IMG/VR virus record: IMGVR_UViG_3300005647_000016
Coordinates: 1 to 33,900 of that record
Direction: 5' to 3' (one strand)
DNA length: 33,900 nt
Origin: a virus
Notes under the pieces: generated by a model
The model's database searches: none
What the model was told of the DNA's origin: nothing
The model's input: the letters and a program-made list of their open reading frames with translations, nothing else
Program-made: the position numbers and the translations under genes
In this document: positions 713 through 32,018 of the stretch, piece by piece
Layout of the letters: every line of letters starts with the position of its first letter
Numbering within the stretch: position 1 is the stretch's first letter

Positions 713-1600
713 ATGAACGAACAACAACTGGAAGTCATAAAAAAGGGCGCGCTAGCATGGGAAAACTACGCGGACAAGGGTTATATCGACCTAGAAGGGG
801 CTGACCTATCCGGGCTTAAGCTAGGTTACATCGACCTAAGAAACGCAAACCTAAAAGGCGCAATCATCCGAAGTACAGACTTCACCGCGGCGAACTTAAG
901 CGGTGCGGATTTGACCGATGCAAAAATAACAGATTGCGTCTTTCGAAACGCACAACTACAATCCTCTAAATTTACAGGCTGTAAAGGCTCACATGTAGAT
1001 TTTCGCGGCGCGCGGTTAATGGGTGCAGACTTCGCATACTCAAACCTAACGTTAGCGGTATTTTGCGGGTCTGACGCGCCTTACATAAATTTCACAGAAG
1101 CAGAGCTATCTAGTTGTTCCTTTCATCGGGCAGTTCTGGACTGCGCAAAATTCATAGATTCAACGTTGCCGATGTGCAGCTTTCTAGGATGTGACGTAGA
1201 GGATTCAGACTTTACAAATGCACATTTACGCTATGCTGTTTTTAAGCGTTGTGATTTATTCTCCACTGTGTTTGACCATGCCGATCTATACCATGCAAAT
1301 ATTTCTACCTGCCAGATACGGTATGCTAGCTTCGAAGGCGCAAACCTAGAAGAGTGCAAGCTACCGCTTACGTTCCTGTTTGACAAGCGCGGCCATGAGG
1401 CGCAATACAGCACCACCGAAAGCGGCGAAATTACATACCATCTTGGATGTAGAAAGTTTAGCCTCAGTCAAGCAAAAGAGCATTTCTTATCCGATGTCTA
1501 TGACTATCCGAAAGCAGGACGGTACATAATCAAGTTGCTGAAATTGTGTTGGAAGGTTAACCGCGACAGTGCAGAACTAGCAGAGGAAAAAAACCTATGA
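713..1600 (+). CDS. pentapeptide-repeat protein, copy 1 (295 aa)
   Basis: From about residue 25 to 220 the protein is built of A(D/N)LxX-type five-residue repeats (for example ADLSG, ANLKG, ANLSG, ADLTD), which fold as a right-handed square beta helix. A short N-terminal region carries the KGALAWENY motif and a C-terminal extension of about 75 residues (LTFLFDKRGHE to LLKLC) follows. Both are shared with the next gene. Some pentapeptide proteins (Qnr, MfpA) mimic DNA and bind gyrase, and others have unknown roles. The start has AAAGGAAC 8-14 bases upstream. The stop overlaps the next start by four bases. Copies 1, 2 and 3 are diverged tandem duplicates. Confidence 0.92.
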   Translation: MNEQQLEVIKKGALAWENYADKGYIDLEGADLSGLKLGYIDLRNANLKGAIIRSTDFTAANLSGADLTDAKITDCVFRNAQLQSSKFTGCKGSHVDFRGARLMGADFAYSNLTLAVFCGSDAPYINFTEAELSSCSFHRAVLDCAKFIDSTLPMCSFLGCDVEDSDFTNAHLRYAVFKRCDLFSTVFDHADLYHANISTCQIRYASFEGANLEECKLPLTFLFDKRGHEAQYSTTESGEITYHLGCRKFSLSQAKEHFLSDVYDYPKAGRYIIKLLKLCWKVNRDSAELAEEKNL

Positions 1601-2463
1601 GACGCAACCAGTACGACTTATTACTAAAAGGTGTGTCGGTATGGAACGACTTCAAAGCTAGCGCAAAACAGCACATAGACTTAAGCTGTGCGGATTTAGC
1701 ACATATGGACCTGCGCGGCATAGACCTTACCGGAGTCAACTTAAGCGGCGCGGTACTTGTCAATACGATATTAGACCACTCGAACTTATCAGATGCTGAT
1801 TTAACGGGTGCAGAACTCAATCAAGCAAGCATCCGACACTGCAATTTGACCAGTGCTGTACTTAACATGGCGGGTGGTACAGCGGCTGATTTTACAGGCT
1901 CAAACCTTACCGCGGCCTTGTTTCTTTCTGCTGTGTTTCAGTACTGTAATTTCAGAATGACCGAAGGCCCACGCGCTAACTTTGGCGGGGCTGACATAAC
2001 AAGCTCTGTGTTTGTGCAGTCTGATTTTAGAGGCGCAAATTTTGAGCGTGTGAAGGCAAGTAATACGGTTTGGTGCGGTACTATTATATCTCGCTCACAC
2101 TTTAAAGATGCTGTGTTGAGAGATAGCAACTTTGAGAGATGTAGAGCAAACAACGCAAACTTTACCGGAGCAAATCTAGAAGGCTCCGACTTTACAAATG
2201 CAAGCATAACACACGCCATAACAGATTCAGCCCACATGTACCGCTGTAGTCTGCCTATAGAACTGTTGTTCGACTCTCGCGGACATAATCTAACATATGT
2301 GACTAGGAATGGCAAGTTAGAATTCAAAGCAGGCTGTCATAATCTCAAGCCACAGCAAGCGCAAGAGTACTTTCTAAGTCCAGAATACAAAGACACAGCG
2401 CGCGGTACAGTAATAGCAGCACTTTTAAAACTATGCGAAGAGACCTATGACAGCAATTTGTAA
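1597..2463 (+). CDS. pentapeptide-repeat protein, copy 2 (288 aa)
   Basis: This paralogue of the preceding gene shows the same order: N-terminal LLKGVSVWNDF segment, pentapeptide coil from about residue 28 to 215 (ADLAHM, VNLSG, SNLSD, ADLTG and so on), and a C-terminal domain with ELLFDSRGHN and LLKLC. It starts at 1597 by ATGA overlap with copy 1, so the two are co-translated. The TAA stop at 2461-2463 is at the same time the first three bases of a promoter cassette (2461-2513) that serves copy 3. A DNA-mimic role against gyrase or a defence nuclease is possible but not shown. Confidence 0.92.
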   Translation: MRRNQYDLLLKGVSVWNDFKASAKQHIDLSCADLAHMDLRGIDLTGVNLSGAVLVNTILDHSNLSDADLTGAELNQASIRHCNLTSAVLNMAGGTAADFTGSNLTAALFLSAVFQYCNFRMTEGPRANFGGADITSSVFVQSDFRGANFERVKASNTVWCGTIISRSHFKDAVLRDSNFERCRANNANFTGANLEGSDFTNASITHAITDSAHMYRCSLPIELLFDSRGHNLTYVTRNGKLEFKAGCHNLKPQQAQEYFLSPEYKDTARGTVIAALLKLCEETYDSNL

Positions 2464-2513
2464 CATAATACGTCAAATTGCCCATTGACACGCACGAAAC
2501 ACCGTGCTAAACT
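2461..2513 (+). promoter_or_regulatory. class A promoter cassette
   Basis: TTGACA (2485-2490), 17 bp and TAAACT (2508-2513), preceded by TGC as an extended -10. The upstream block TAACATAATACGTCAAATT is shared with four other + strand copies, and its core with two - strand copies. It starts at the stop codon of copy 2 and reads into pentapeptide copy 3. Confidence 0.88.
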
Positions 2514-2533
2514 GTTGATACAGGCAAGCGCAA

Positions 2534-2553
2534 CACAGCAAGTGCTGTAACGA
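2534..2553 (+). promoter_or_regulatory. conserved leader hairpin motif
   Basis: ACAGCA-AG-TGCTGT forms a 6-bp stem in the untranslated leader of pentapeptide copy 3. The same string CACAGCAAGTGCTGTAACGA recurs in the leader after the 27753 promoter (27800-27819). A related form (CAGC...GCTGTGACG) is found after the 30639 promoter, so the leader was duplicated with the promoter. Confidence 0.55.
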
Positions 2554-2587
2554 AGGTAAAGCGTAGCCAACACAGCAAGGTGATATT

Positions 2588-3367
2588 ATGAATAACATAC
2601 AGTACGAAATAGCCCTAAAAGGTCCCAAAGCGTGGAATGAATACCGTGACGGTACCAGTGAAGTGATTGACCTATCATACGCTGATTTAGCAGGTTTAGA
2701 CCTAACTGGTATCAACTTTGACAACGCAAACCTAAGAGGCGCAATTCTACAGTTCGCAAACCTAAGTAATGCTTCTCTTGTGGGCGCAAATGGGATTGAT
2801 GCGAACCTAGCAGGAGCAACGTTCACGGAAGCAAAACTAAACGGAGCGGTACTAAAACACGCTGACTTGACAAATGCCAAATTCAAGCGTGCAGATATGC
2901 AATCCGTGGTGATGACGTGTGCCACCGCCCAAGGCGCAAGTTTTGAACTATCAGACATGACAAAATCTGTACTTGAACGGTGTAATATCTCGCAGGCTGA
3001 TTTTAGCAATGTGTTAGCACGACACGCTATAATCACCCAAGCGTTAGCACTGGACACAAACTTCTCAAATGCTGACATTGCGTATAGTAATCTATCATTT
3101 TCAAGACTTGACAGTACATCATTCTATCAGTCAAACGCTTTTGCTTGCATCTTCGATAATGCAAGTCTTGAAAATGCTGACTTTACAGAATCGTGTATGT
3201 CCTATGCTTCGATGCGAAGGGCTAACGCTTACGGAGCGACGTTCTGTATGGTAGAAAGCAACTCAGTAGATTTCACAGATTCATTACTACAAAAAGCAAA
3301 CTTCAAAGACACATACTTACGGGATACTGTCTTACCAGATGGTATCGTATCAAACACAAACAACTAA
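2588..3367 (+). CDS. pentapeptide-repeat protein, copy 3 (259 aa)
   Basis: Third member of the tandem family, with the same N-terminal ALKGPKAWNEYRDG segment and a long pentapeptide coil (ADLAG, ANLRG, ANLSN, ANLAG, ADLTN and further) that runs nearly to the C terminus. It lacks the C-terminal LFDxRGH/LLKLC domain of copies 1 and 2, so it is either a reduced version or a separate acquisition. It has its own class A promoter (2461-2513) and a 75-base CA-rich leader, with AAGGTGATATT before the ATG. The role is unknown. Three differing coils in a row suggest different targets or an arms race with a host target. Confidence 0.92.
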   Translation: MNNIQYEIALKGPKAWNEYRDGTSEVIDLSYADLAGLDLTGINFDNANLRGAILQFANLSNASLVGANGIDANLAGATFTEAKLNGAVLKHADLTNAKFKRADMQSVVMTCATAQGASFELSDMTKSVLERCNISQADFSNVLARHAIITQALALDTNFSNADIAYSNLSFSRLDSTSFYQSNAFACIFDNASLENADFTESCMSYASMRRANAYGATFCMVESNSVDFTDSLLQKANFKDTYLRDTVLPDGIVSNTNN

Positions 3368-4045: not shown

Positions 4046-4155
4046 TGAACGCTAAAAAATCAGTAGGGAACTATTAATGAAACGTGGTAAAAAAGATGAT
4101 TGGTCATATTCTGGATAGCACAGGATAAGCCAAGTACTATACTATACTAAGGGAA

Positions 4156-4194
4156 GGGTGCAGTCACGGCAAGGTGACTGCACCCTATTTTTTT
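4156..4194. terminator. strong intrinsic terminator between convergent operons
   Basis: GGGTGCAGTCAC (4156-4167) pairs perfectly with 4174-4185 around a six-base loop, followed by TATTTTTTT on the + strand. The converging - strand late operon ends at 4193, so the stem probably serves both directions. On the - strand the bases after the stem are A-poor and T-poor, so termination there is less certain. Confidence 0.92.
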
Positions 4195-4864
4195 ACCATA
4201 AAATACCGTGCGCCAGTGTTATAATTTGCATTACGACAACCAAGAGACAACAAGCCATAATCACAATCTGTCGGTTTGTTGTTTGTGTTAGACTGACCAC
4301 GCGCGTGTCCGGTCCACCTGCCCGATCCCAACAGAGCTTTGAGTAATTCTCTTTTGCCTTCGTGTAGGCAGTACCGTAGGTAAGGCCGCGTGACAAGTGA
4401 TAGTAGAATATAGCCGCGTGGCCGTTTGCCTCATTTTCTTCTATCAGTACTTCGGAGCCATTAGATACAACGTTAACGTTCGCCTTTTCTGCTAGTTCTT
4501 GCGCTATCAGTTTCGTTCCGCAGCCGTTCAAATACATCATGCTAACATTTGAACCTATGCCGGCCAAGTCACCGACTGTTAAGTTCTGCCCATTCTCCAA
4601 AGGAAAAACACACGACATCAAGTCGAACGCCCCAGCTACATGTACAATATCGAATCGCCCTACGTCTATTAAGTCTCTTACGCGTTGCGCTGTTACCATA
4701 CCGTTGCGTATTACGCTTGTATTGTGGTGGCGGGATATGCTGTCAATCTCCGACACCTGCGAGTCGTACTCTGTACTAGTGCAGATAATCAGCACAGAGC
4801 GCGCTCCTTTCTTTCTCACATAGCCAAACCAAGCAAGGGCGAAGAGTACAGATTTAATCATCAT
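4193..4864 (-). CDS. CHAT-like (caspase-fold) cysteine protease with C-terminal membrane anchor (223 aa)
   Basis: Residues 70-175 follow the pattern of CHAT peptidases: strand with histidine (FDIVHVAGAFD, H75), then LENGQNLTVGDL, then MMYLNGCGT with Cys115, then VVSNGSEVLIEENEANGHAAIFYYHLSRGLTYGTAYTKA. The His-Cys spacing of 40 is close to that of the known dyad in TPR-CHAT of Craspase (H585/C627). The usual HG after the catalytic strand is changed here (HVAGAF). Residues 199-222 form one hydrophobic helix, and the first 15 residues are also hydrophobic. It is the last gene of the late operon, nine bases after the astacin gene, with AGGTG before the start. The fold assignment is inference. 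A degenerate, inactive copy is the main alternative. Confidence 0.62.
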   Translation of the reverse strand: MMIKSVLFALAWFGYVRKKGARSVLIICTSTEYDSQVSEIDSISRHHNTSVIRNGMVTAQRVRDLIDVGRFDIVHVAGAFDLMSCVFPLENGQNLTVGDLAGIGSNVSMMYLNGCGTKLIAQELAEKANVNVVSNGSEVLIEENEANGHAAIFYYHLSRGLTYGTAYTKAKENYSKLCWDRAGGPDTRVVSLTQTTNRQIVIMACCLLVVVMQIITLAHGILW

Positions 4865-4872
4865 ACTATCAC

Positions 4873-5793
4873 CTACCTGTAAGCTATAGGGATGTACGTT
4901 TTATTCTCTTTTGGTTCCTTCTCTTCGGGTTTAGGTTCGGGTTCTTTCGGTTTAGGTTCGGGTTCTTTTGGCTTCGGTTCGGTCGGTTCGGTCGGTAGCT
5001 TGACTGTACCGTTGCCATAGTTTAGCTGTACCCAAATTCTGTCACCTTGGGACATCTTGCCATTAAATGGTATACCGTTGCCGCTTGCATCAAACTTTTT
5101 GTCAAGGTAGTAACCCATGATTGAGCTACTATCATATGGCGTTGTGGTAGCATCTTTACGATCAGGCCTGCGCATAAACATGCGGTATACACCGTCTTTG
5201 TCTATACCGTACTGTGCGAAATGGTCATACCCTGCTTGATTTATTATCACAGGGCAATCTGGGTGATCTTGCTCATGTAGCATACCTAACATATGCAATA
5301 ACTCATGGGTAACGACACGGTGTATTTCGTCGTACCGTTCGTTTTCGTGCGCCCAATCTAACCACCCAAAATTCATTGTGTTTCTATGCCAAGGCAGCTT
5401 TAACACATCGTTTCCTAGAAATGACCAGCTACCACCGTCTCTAAAAGTGCATCTGATTTCGGGCGGGAACAAAGCATCAGCACTGTCTTTGTAGGTCTCT
5501 TCGTTCTCTTCATGTGCTAGTCCAACATCCTCTGACACTGACCATACAATATTCAATCCGTGGCCTATCGCGTCGCTTGCTTCTATCACATACCTATGAT
5601 AAACAGGCAGACCGCCCCAAAACCGAAAATTTAAGGTTTGGCCTCTCTTCCATAAGTTGGCTGTAAGTCCTACGCCACGATGCGCGGCGCGTGTCCTTGC
5701 CGATTCTGCTATTTTTTGGTCAGTACCACACAAACACGACAAGTAACGCGTGTCATCCTGTGTTATTGACTGTACCGTACTTTTAATACTCAT
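4873..5793 (-). CDS. astacin-like zinc metalloprotease (306 aa)
   Basis: Residues 163-179 read HELLHMLGMLHEQDHPD, the metzincin/astacin HExxHxxGxxHE signature (zinc ligands H163, H167, H173; catalytic E164). A Met-turn SSSIMGYY follows at 223-229 (Met226). The strand pattern before it (IRCTF ... GSWSFLGND) also fits astacin and matrixin catalytic domains. There is no signal peptide and no clear prodomain. The last 45 residues are Pro/Glu/Lys/Thr repeats (PTEPTEPKPKEPEPKPKEPE), probably a stalk. Its place after the tail genes suggests a virion-associated or lysis-stage protease acting on a host surface protein. Direct proof of virion association is lacking. Confidence 0.9.
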   Translation of the reverse strand: MSIKSTVQSITQDDTRYLSCLCGTDQKIAESARTRAAHRGVGLTANLWKRGQTLNFRFWGGLPVYHRYVIEASDAIGHGLNIVWSVSEDVGLAHEENEETYKDSADALFPPEIRCTFRDGGSWSFLGNDVLKLPWHRNTMNFGWLDWAHENERYDEIHRVVTHELLHMLGMLHEQDHPDCPVIINQAGYDHFAQYGIDKDGVYRMFMRRPDRKDATTTPYDSSSIMGYYLDKKFDASGNGIPFNGKMSQGDRIWVQLNYGNGTVKLPTEPTEPKPKEPEPKPKEPEPKPEEKEPKENKTYIPIAYR

Positions 5794-21423: not shown

Positions 21424-21867
21424 CTAGTACAGAGAATAGAAAGTATGGTTCTCTATCCGCACTGTGATTAGTTCATCTACGGCCCAAGTTGGCTTATCAT
21501 CCAACACAGCAAGGTTGCAATAGTGTGTCGCGCCAAATGTTATGTCATCTAGCAAGCCATACACAACTTGAGAAGCTACGGTCCAACACTCTATGTCAAT
21601 CTCGCTGTGCTTAACGTCAACGCTGTCTATGGCATTAAAGCAGGAGAACTGCCAAGGTTCGGCCATAACGTCCACGTAGGACATACCGCGTTTACGCGCA
21701 CGATTGACTATCACAGATGCAACAGCCTGTTTTCCTATCAGTGGTTCTCCACGGCATTCAAGGTGCAGACACAGCGCAATCTGCGCAATAGCCGCGGCGT
21801 ACCGTCGCGAGTACTGTATGCCGTAGTCTTTAAGAAAGTTAAAGGTTTCTGACCGTTTAGGAGCCAT
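21424..21867 (-). CDS. SleB/CwlJ-type cell wall hydrolase, endolysin candidate (147 aa)
   Basis: Contains the Hydrolase_2 signature: CLHLECRGEPLIGKQAVASVIVNRARKRG with the catalytic glutamate, PWQFSCFN, and GATHYCN at the end. This family cleaves glycan strands and is used by many phages as endolysin. I choose ATG 21867, as AGGTAG lies nine bases upstream. ATG 21888 would give seven more residues with no site. No signal peptide, so release needs the neighbouring holin candidate. Confidence 0.9.
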   Translation of the reverse strand: MAPKRSETFNFLKDYGIQYSRRYAAAIAQIALCLHLECRGEPLIGKQAVASVIVNRARKRGMSYVDVMAEPWQFSCFNAIDSVDVKHSEIDIECWTVASQVVYGLLDDITFGATHYCNLAVLDDKPTWAVDELITVRIENHTFYSLY

Positions 21868-21872
21868 GGCTT

Positions 21873-22214
21873 CTACCTGCCTATCCATCGACGCATAGCT
21901 CGCTCATTGCGTGTTAGGCTACTGTACGATGGACTTATGGCGTTAAGCGGCTTCGGCTCCGTGTTGTGGTAAACATCTATGTACACACCAAGAAACTTGG
22001 CAGCAAAAGCCGTGGCAACCGATACGAACGTCGCAATCGAGAATTCAGTCGATATCATCTCATTACTTGTCAGCGCTGCTATAGCATTGAATATAACTAT
22101 CAACGCAACTAAGCGGCTTGTTTTTTTCATAGTCGGTAGACCGTCAAGTACGGGTCCGACGTATCGAACGATGAAGTTAATCATTGAGTTGTTGCTCATT
22201 TGGTTACTATCCAT
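21873..22214 (-). CDS. two-helix membrane protein, holin candidate (113 aa)
   Basis: Two hydrophobic segments (about residues 34-49 RLVALIVIFNAIAALTS, and 57-78 FSIATFVSVATAFAAKFLGVYI) with a short polar loop and a basic C-terminal tail (RNERAMRRWIGR). Sitting immediately upstream of the endolysin and overlapping it, it fits a class II holin. GAGG lies ten bases before ATG 22214. It overlaps the end of the VRR-NUC gene by eight bases. Function by position and topology only. Confidence 0.7.
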   Translation of the reverse strand: MDSNQMSNNSMINFIVRYVGPVLDGLPTMKKTSRLVALIVIFNAIAALTSNEMISTEFSIATFVSVATAFAAKFLGVYIDVYHNTEPKPLNAISPSYSSLTRNERAMRRWIGR

Positions 22215-29286: not shown

Positions 29287-29784
29287 ATGATAAATTACAG
29301 AAAAGCCGCCGCAGATGCATTGTGGACGAAAGAAGGCAAGCAACTGAAAAAGTTTCCTTCTCCAGAACTGTTAAATGATGTGCTTGTCCGCGGCAAGACT
29401 TCGGACGATTACAGCACAGCATTTGAAAGGGCAAAGCGCAAGACAGAACGCTTTCAACTACCGCGGATGCACCAGCTAATATCGGAATTGTGGTTGATGT
29501 CATATATCTGTGTTGACGTTAACGACCGTACGCAAGCCCCGCGCACATCTATCACCATGCTAAGACACGTCTGTAATCGTTCTGGACTTGTGCCAAGCGG
29601 CCACAGAATAGATACAGATAAGGCATTCATAATTGAACTCTTTGACCTAAACAAGACGTTAGGACCTTTGGCAGCACAGCGCATACTTGGACGGAAACTT
29701 CGACTTGCCGACATCGAGCCAACTATAGAAGTCTTGAGCGGTCTCTTTTTGGGCGAATCTGCACAGGATACGATTAATGAGTAA
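29287..29784 (+). CDS. early protein of unknown function (165 aa)
   Basis: Mostly helical and basic in the first half (MINYRKAAADALWTKEGKQLKKFPSPELLNDVLVRGKTSDD, RAKRKTERFQLPRMHQLISELWLMSYICVDV) with a second half ending IEPTIEVLSGLFLGESAQDTINE. It has no known family signature. Follows the paralogue triplet by three bases and overlaps the following gene by eight, so belongs to the same operon. A DNA-associated role would suit the basic helices but is only a guess. Confidence 0.72.
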   Translation: MINYRKAAADALWTKEGKQLKKFPSPELLNDVLVRGKTSDDYSTAFERAKRKTERFQLPRMHQLISELWLMSYICVDVNDRTQAPRTSITMLRHVCNRSGLVPSGHRIDTDKAFIIELFDLNKTLGPLAAQRILGRKLRLADIEPTIEVLSGLFLGESAQDTINE

Positions 29785-30502
29785 GGCAAGCGCGGCAAAG
29801 GCAAGCAAAGCGAGCAAGGCAAGCGCGGCAAAGGCAAGCAAAGCGAGTGCAGGCAAGGCAAGCAAAGCGAGTACAGCACGACAAACCAAGGGCGGCATCA
29901 TTAAAGAATTCCACCGCGAGATATTCAAAGACTGGGGAAGTGCTGGACTAGATGCGTACCAACTGGACCTATACGAAAAGGTCCCTTTGGTACCGTCTCC
30001 AGCGGTACAGTTGTATGCCGCTTGTTTAGCTCATGGTGCTATGCTGGGGCTTAACGGTAACACGCTTTGCACGTTAGCCACCACAGCCGATACATGGCAG
30101 CACTACAAGAGTCTGTACCGCGCAGGCATACAAAAACATGCACGCTCGCTGGCTGAAATACTCAGACCGTCAACAATTTATACTGACAACCGCGGGGCTG
30201 ATTCTTTCTTTTCTGACATATTACGGCCATGCGACATTAACGAATCCGCAACTGTTGGTGCTGCGCTGTACTTGTCATTGCAATTTTTCGACAAGCTGGA
30301 CGGGTATAAACTGGTACGAACGCGCGCGGCTAATAGGGAGTATTTCTGGCTTAAGCGCGACGCGACCGACGCGAACGACGCGACCGACGCGACCGACGCG
30401 ACCGACGCGAACGACGCGACCGACGCGACCGACGCGACCGACGCGACCGACGCGACCGACGCGACCGACGCGACCGACGCGACCGACGCGACCGATGGTT
30501 AG
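29777..30502 (+). CDS. protein with basic Lys-Ala-Ser repeat head and acidic Asp-Ala-Thr repeat tail (241 aa)
   Basis: The first 32 residues are KASAAKASKAS repeats (two exact 33-bp DNA copies, 29783-29848, and a partial one), basic like a histone tail. The central 155 residues are a compact helical domain (IIKEFHREIFKDWGSAGLDAYQLDLYEKVPL, VQLYAACLAHGAMLGL, YLSLQFFDKLDGYKLV). The last 47 residues are fifteen Asp-Ala-(Thr/Asn) units from a 9-bp repeat. The opposite charges could fold back on each other or bridge partners. The family is not recognised. Both repeats are young, as the DNA copies are nearly exact. Confidence 0.8.
   Translation: MSKASAAKASKASKASAAKASKASAGKASKASTARQTKGGIIKEFHREIFKDWGSAGLDAYQLDLYEKVPLVPSPAVQLYAACLAHGAMLGLNGNTLCTLATTADTWQHYKSLYRAGIQKHARSLAEILRPSTIYTDNRGADSFFSDILRPCDINESATVGAALYLSLQFFDKLDGYKLVRTRAANREYFWLKRDATDANDATDATDATDANDATDATDATDATDATDATDATDATDATDG
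30359..30493 (+). repeat. 9-bp tandem repeat, 15 copies
   Basis: Unit GACGCGACC, with AAC instead of ACC in units 2 and 6, fills positions 30359-30493 without interruption and stays in frame. It is almost perfect, so it is recent or kept by gene conversion. Confidence 0.95.
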
Positions 30503-30916: not shown

Positions 30917-31299
30917 ACTCTCTAGAAAGCGACTTTCTTAATCAGCCTCTGACAGTTACTGACAGTACGGATAACCTACACGTACGGCTACTGCACACGT
31001 TACGCAAATGCGGCTATACAGTGACTGTCAAGGGCAGCAAGCTATGCATCGAAGGCAAGCCATGGAAAGGCTCATGTAAGCGCATACAGGCAGCACTGAC
31101 GGAGCGCGACAAGCAAGCCATATATAACCTACTTGTGATTGACTTATCACTGTCTATACCGTTTCGCATAGCAAGGTATATCGGAGTTGCTCTGACTTAT
31201 CCCGAAGCTGACACAGTAATTAGAATAGCAAAAAAAAGCGGCATAGTGCTGTATAAAACAGAACTAGACACAGCCGCGTATCTATGGACAAAAAAGTAA
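30913..31299 (+). CDS. protein of unknown function with a possible ATA start (128 aa)
   Basis: The open frame continues upstream of GTG 31021 back to 30904 and contains no ATG, GTG or TTG before 31021. AAAAGG (30895-30900) has suitable spacing to ATA 30913, which overlaps the preceding stop (ATAG), so translation probably starts there. A GTG 31021 start (92 aa) has no ribosome binding site. The product has RLLHTLRKCGYTVTVKGSKLCIEGKPWKGSCKRIQAAL and a closing helical part (IAKKSGIVLYKTELDTAAYLW). Function unknown. Confidence 0.55.
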   Translation: MDSLESDFLNQPLTVTDSTDNLHVRLLHTLRKCGYTVTVKGSKLCIEGKPWKGSCKRIQAALTERDKQAIYNLLVIDLSLSIPFRIARYIGVALTYPEADTVIRIAKKSGIVLYKTELDTAAYLWTKK

Positions 31300-32018
31300 T
31301 GAGCAAGAAATTACATAAGGATGAACTAGATTCACTAACTAACGTGTATTCAAAACTAGCACAGCAACAATCACGCGCTGCAATAGGCCAACTAAAATCT
31401 ATATTTGCCGTTGCTGCTTTTGCAAGAATGGCGGTAGACAATGCCGACTATATACTCGATATGCCGACATTAAAAGTAAGGCCGAACGTGTCTCTACCGT
31501 GGGGACATCAAGGCCGTCGCTTGTGGGGACTTACACGTACAGTCGCGGATGCAACAAGGCAGATAATCACATACAATTCAGTTGTGTGTAATACCAAGTA
31601 CGGTATCGTGCGCAATGCTGTATTTGACGGGTGGTACGTTATCTTCGACGATATGGAGCAATTCAAGCGGTACATAACCGAAGATGTACCGGACATTATG
31701 CATTCAGAGTATGCTAATTCAGTATATAGCAGCATGGAAAATGTAAGGGCTTCGAACTACAGGCCCGAAGTATTGAGTGCAGAATCCCATAGCCGCCGCG
31801 CTGGTATGCTGGACGGTGATAACAGCCCGGTGCCACCACTGGACATAGTCGGTGATAAATGCCGTGCGTGTGGTAGCTGCAAGAACTTATCGGTAGACCA
31901 TATAATACCGGTCTCAAAAGGTGGGGATAACAGACTTACTAACTTGCAGGTGCTTTGTCGGATTTGCAATTCAGCTAAGAATAACATGCTGAAATATGCC
32001 GAAGGGAAAAACGGATAA
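31299..32018 (+). CDS. HNH endonuclease with long N-terminal domain (239 aa)
   Basis: C-terminal HNH core with CRACGSCKNLSVDHIIPVSKGGDNRLTNLQVLCRICNSAKNN: zinc CxxC pairs plus the DHIIP histidine and final N. The N-terminal 180 residues form a helical region with no known motif. I prefer ATG 31299, which overlaps the stop of the previous gene (TAATG). ATG 31284 has no site. Its length, larger than packaging HNH proteins, suggests a homing-like or host-DNA nuclease rather than a terminase partner. Confidence 0.88.
   Translation: MSKKLHKDELDSLTNVYSKLAQQQSRAAIGQLKSIFAVAAFARMAVDNADYILDMPTLKVRPNVSLPWGHQGRRLWGLTRTVADATRQIITYNSVVCNTKYGIVRNAVFDGWYVIFDDMEQFKRYITEDVPDIMHSEYANSVYSSMENVRASNYRPEVLSAESHSRRAGMLDGDNSPVPPLDIVGDKCRACGSCKNLSVDHIIPVSKGGDNRLTNLQVLCRICNSAKNNMLKYAEGKNG

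Follow-up and report, generated by a model that had tools for sequence, protein, structure and literature searches.

Introduction

CHAT proteases are executioners of bacterial immunity, as in Craspase and SAVED-CHAT, and those acting in bacterial immunity also include gasdermin-activating proteases. In Csx29, the H615A/C658A mutation abolishes activity, and the CHAT1 domain is a pseudo-caspase domain that interfaces with Cas7-11 (PMC10028731). Viruses are able to reuse defence-effector domains, as is the case for AcrIII-2, a viral SAVED domain that serves as an anti-CRISPR (PMC12751052). A conserved, dead, and membrane-anchored phage CHAT protein would suggest that phages counter CHAT immunity with pseudoenzymes; among open-licence PMC papers, we found none that describes such a protein. 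Here, we compare these systems with a gene located in a 33.9-kb stretch of phage DNA, the whole of which is referred to below as the window.

Results

A conserved last gene in the late operon

The window contains a siphovirus-like late block on the minus strand, with genes for the terminase large subunit, portal, prohead protease, capsid, major tail protein, a tape-measure-like protein, and tail proteins. The features at the end of this operon are as follows:

4193 to 4864, minus strand: gene for a predicted CHAT-like pseudoprotease of 223 amino acids (aa) with a C-terminal membrane helix (ORF, dN/dS, CHAT profile, hhalign, and structural model)
4155 to 4186, no strand assigned: hairpin terminator of 13 pairs with T tails, between the converging late operon and left-hand operon
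4873 to 5793, minus strand: predicted astacin-like zinc metalloprotease (HELLHMLGMLHE, SIMGYY), directly upstream of the CHAT-like gene

The ORF at 4193 to 4864 runs from an ATG start to a stop codon. A sister locus, the 26.4-kb IMG/VR contig L001, encodes a copy of the protein that is 95% identical. Because dN/dS between the two copies is 0.02 (100 synonymous and 15 nonsynonymous changes) and 94 of the 115 base differences fall at third codon positions, we conclude from sequence comparison that this is a genuine gene under strong purifying selection. Apart from the sister copy and one weak plasmid match, no relatives were found among phages, genome contigs, 198 genomes of the Saprospiraceae phylum, or viral contigs.

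The gene is the last of the late operon, with a strong terminator-like hairpin just past its stop codon. The hairpin stem is preserved in the sister contig, where one pair is changed on both sides. The product of the neighbouring gene at 4873 to 5793 matches Astacin (PF01400) at 27.6 bits (cut-off, 22.5). It keeps the HExxHxxGxxHE zinc motif intact, carries a tail of proline-rich repeats, and resembled no protein in 50,697 phage records. The gene is separated from the CHAT-like gene by 8 bp, and the two are neighbours in the sister contig as well. The first-pass annotation, made from the window sequence, had described the CHAT-like gene as closing the late operon and lying next to a metalloprotease; the T-tailed hairpin with its 13-bp stem and the Astacin match bear out both statements.

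Several other features of the window deserve mention. The operon converging on the CHAT-like gene includes three consecutive plus-strand genes (713 to 3367), the third of which encodes a pentapeptide-repeat protein (PF00805, 130 bits); the products of the first two carry similar repeats. DNA mimicry is common among pentapeptide-repeat proteins. Also on the plus strand are an HNH protein (31284 to 32018), whose HNH part scores 35.8 bits against an IscB model, a weak match far below the cut-off, and low-complexity ATDATDATD repeats (30300 to 30500) in the tail of the ORF at 29777 to 30502. As for the host, the capsid is nearest to that of Synechococcus phage S-LBS1 (37.5%), but the terminase, portal, and primase have other affinities, and the window lacks the cyanobacterial HIP1 octamer. 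GATC is strongly under-represented across the whole window (23 observed versus about 95 expected), which suggests avoidance of a GATC-cutting host enzyme. Outside the window, a Saprospiraceae metagenome-assembled genome (MAG; L005-L026) carries 27 CHAT domains, many of them N-terminal in much larger proteins, and thus has an expanded effector repertoire.

Relationship to CHAT domains

4346 to 4798, minus strand: CHAT/caspase-fold domain, residues 23 to 173 (hhalign columns 24 to 173; AlphaFold secondary structure)
4199 to 4270, minus strand: C-terminal transmembrane helix, residues 199 to 222 (hydropathy; helix in both AlphaFold models)

Scans of the ORF with Pfam, NCBIfam, PADLOC, and PHROGs yielded only noise, and phmmer found no match to the protein in the PDB. 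A weak tblastn match (E 0.2) gave the first lead: it fell in the N-terminal part of a TPR protein encoded on a Haliscomenobacter plasmid, in a domain that Pfam identifies as CHAT at 30 bits. A profile built from 14 short N-terminal CHAT domains, mostly of NLR/TPR-type proteins, scored 34.6 bits (E 1.8e-9) against the phage protein; 2,000 shuffled versions of this protein reached 7.6 bits at most, and no other ORF in the window passed E 1. When the two phage sequences were aligned and compared by hhalign with seven CHAT domains, the match had a probability of 95.3% over 148 columns. The protein is thus homologous to the N-terminal CHAT domains of bacterial NLR/TPR-type proteins and to the CHAT domain of SAVED-CHAT.

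Two AlphaFold models were obtained. That built from the two near-identical phage sequences, without CHAT relatives, had a pLDDT of 45.7 and was discarded as too poor; flavodoxins led its fold search, and SAVED-CHAT (PDB 8tl0) appeared at rank 19 (E 0.025), a weaker hint. The second model covers residues 20 to 223 and was built from five sequences (pLDDT 70.4, pTM 0.66). Its top PDB matches were five SAVED-CHAT chains (8tl0; E 7.8e-7 to 2.3e-5), although this resemblance is not independent of the sequence evidence because CHAT relatives are in the model's alignment. The best of these matches had a Foldseek probability of 1.00, an E value of 7.8e-7, and a TM score of 0.62 by query length, with the caspase CED-3 lower in the ranking. 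Against a library of viral models, the second model resembled uncharacterised phage proteins and viral caspase-like proteins. The protein is therefore predicted to adopt a caspase-type alpha/beta fold.

Residues 199 to 222, with a peak 19-residue Kyte-Doolittle mean of 2.86, make up a strong membrane helix. The domain is therefore probably anchored by its tail, the body lying on the cytoplasmic side. The ORF stands alone, ending in this helix, and is not fused to TPR, NTPase, or SAVED sensor modules. The CHAT/caspase fold and C-terminal membrane helix proposed in the first-pass annotation agree with the profile, hhalign, 8tl0, and hydropathy results. The Foldseek and profile check that it put forward gave a divided outcome: the fold matched SAVED-CHAT, but Pfam CHAT (PF12770; gathering cut-off, 24 bits) gave no match by hmmscan at E 10 or in a genome search.

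Loss of the catalytic histidine

4640 to 4642, minus strand: H75, first, noncatalytic His of the HxxGH motif (alignments; Csx29 has L611 here)
4628 to 4630, minus strand: A79, catalytic-His position, lost (alignments; Val in the sister copy)
4520 to 4522, minus strand: C115, nucleophilic Cys position in the LNGC motif, kept (alignments)

CHAT domains carry a two-His motif, HxxGH, which in the phage protein reads H75-V-A-G-A79. A profile alignment that takes in solved structures shows Csx29 as LLLLCHG, with the aligned His and Cys at chain positions 615 and 658. H615 aligns to phage position 79, C658 to C115, and L611 to H75. Since the role of H615 is proven by mutation, the catalytic His of CHAT domains is the second His of the motif. 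The spacing of 40 between H75 and C115 is that between the first, noncatalytic His and the Cys in CHAT relatives, whose catalytic His precedes the Cys by 36 residues. H75 itself is invariant in the CHAT profile alignment. Position 79, Ala in this phage and Val in the sister copy, is among the few residues that differ between the two proteins, as expected for a noncatalytic site. In a pattern survey that did not require His at the catalytic position, all 46 cellular CHAT matches had His there, several near-duplicate loci being included in this count.

Of the hallmarks of a CHAT cysteine protease, the phage protein hence retains the Cys after the LxxC strand (C115 in LNGC) and has Ala in place of the catalytic His. 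Because of this replacement (A79, and V79 in the sister copy), the simplest reading of the sequence is that the product is a membrane-anchored CHAT pseudoprotease, in which C115 would be inert. The H75/C115 dyad proposed in the first-pass annotation holds up as far as both residues are present and C115 is at the nucleophile position, but H75 is the first, noncatalytic His: it aligns with Csx29 L611, and the catalytic H615 aligns with A79. The working cysteine protease put forward there is at odds with the Ala and Val at this position. It was right to be cautious about the altered HVAGAF motif, as the second His is replaced by A79.

Probable lysis genes elsewhere in the window

21424 to 21888, minus strand: SleB-type cell-wall hydrolase, likely the endolysin (PF07486, 54.9 bits)
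21873 to 22214, minus strand: holin-like 113-aa ORF with hydrophobic stretches (overlaps the hydrolase gene; no family match)

Host lysis had also been suggested as a role for the CHAT-like protein. No endolysin gene adjoins it, the hydrolase gene lying ~16.6 kb away. Because the hydrolase and holin-like ORFs overlap at 21424 to 22214, this role is unlikely and was rejected as a first choice; lysis is probably handled by that pair. The other role named in the first-pass annotation, against a defence system, may still apply.

Discussion

A proposed binding-only role against host CHAT defence

Our best guess, to which we give a probability of roughly 40%, is that the phage protein acts late in infection, by binding only, to interfere with host CHAT-dependent defence. 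On this view, a domain taken by the phage from a defence effector would have been retained in a dead form. Made late and held in the host membrane by its C-terminal helix, the pseudoprotease may act by binding rather than cutting, most likely by taking up, at the membrane, either the substrate of a host CHAT effector or the surface through which that effector contacts its partner. The CHAT-dependent abortive-infection response would thereby be blunted until lysis. We favour interference with a host CHAT response because the phage protein is most closely related to multidomain NLR/TPR-type proteins and to SAVED-CHAT, and a binding-only role fits a dead effector domain that is under strong selection, at the membrane, and late in infection. 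More tentatively, and on balance doubtfully, an NLR-type CHAT domain that was captured, lost its His, and gained an anchor could inhibit CHAT-dependent bacterial cell death as a decoy or in a dominant-negative manner. Two observations count against the favoured reading. C115 is conserved, which would fit residual or unusual activity, and anti-defence genes are often in early regions, whereas this gene ends the late operon.

Other explanations are less probable. It is rather unlikely that the protein is a nonenzymatic membrane scaffold that simply reuses the CHAT fold for a task of the phage's own, such as partnering the astacin or acting in late timing or exit. The dead active site and place in the late operon would suit such a role, as would the tight linkage to the astacin gene in both phages; however, linkage is weak evidence when it comes from only two close genomes, and the nearest cellular relatives are defence-type multidomain proteins. 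Superinfection exclusion and host takeover are frequent jobs of small membrane-anchored phage proteins, and the membrane helix, seen by hydropathy and in the second model, would allow the protein to bind a target in the host membrane or division machinery that has no connection with CHAT defence. We consider this improbable: such proteins are usually expressed early or come from prophages, and no integrase was present among the ORFs examined. Still less probable is an active cysteine protease that pairs C115 with H75 or another residue in a noncanonical dyad. Retention of C115 within LNGC and the invariance of H75 are consistent with activity, but H75 lies four residues upstream of the true catalytic-His position in the same strand, its equivalent is Leu in Csx29 with the proven H615/C658 dyad, and the catalytic-His position itself holds Ala or Val. 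Finally, the lack of any Pfam, NCBIfam, PADLOC, or PHROG family match and the flavodoxin matches of the first model might suggest that the protein is an unrelated one of alpha/beta type whose motifs match by chance. This is very unlikely given the profile E value of 1.8e-9 versus shuffles, the 95% hhalign match over 148 columns, and the fold match to 8tl0 (E 7.8e-7).

Comparison with known systems

The N-terminal CHAT domains of NLR/TPR-type proteins, for example WP_013769074 of Haliscomenobacter plasmid pHALHY02 and the Saprospiraceae MAG copies, share with the phage protein the order of strands and helices and the HxxG, LNGC, and FY-A motifs, with domain identities of about 16 to 24%. They differ in keeping the catalytic second His, which leaves the phage protein predicted to be dead by comparison. 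They are also mostly parts of much larger proteins, whereas the phage protein stands alone and is membrane-anchored; the full-length Haliscomenobacter plasmid TPR protein has no C-terminal membrane helix.

SAVED-CHAT (PDB 8tl0), a CRISPR-associated CHAT protease, is the closest solved structure to the phage model. It differs in having His in the catalytic position (H355, chain numbering), a SAVED sensor domain, and a soluble filament form. Csx29/TPR-CHAT of type III-E CRISPR (Craspase) belongs to the same fold family and defines the catalytic positions, although it showed no direct sequence match with the phage protein. Its CHAT1 offers a precedent for a pseudo-caspase domain, but its CHAT2 is active with H615/C658, and the protein is TPR-fused.

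Bacterial pseudo-orthocaspases (PMC6426788) are likewise caspase-fold proteins conserved without the His/Cys dyad; they are cellular, carry Tyr/Ser replacements, and form a separate family. AcrIII-2 (PMC12751052) is similar in that a virus turns a defence-effector domain against defence. It has a different fold and is active as a ring nuclease, whereas the activity of the phage CHAT protein is predicted to be lost.
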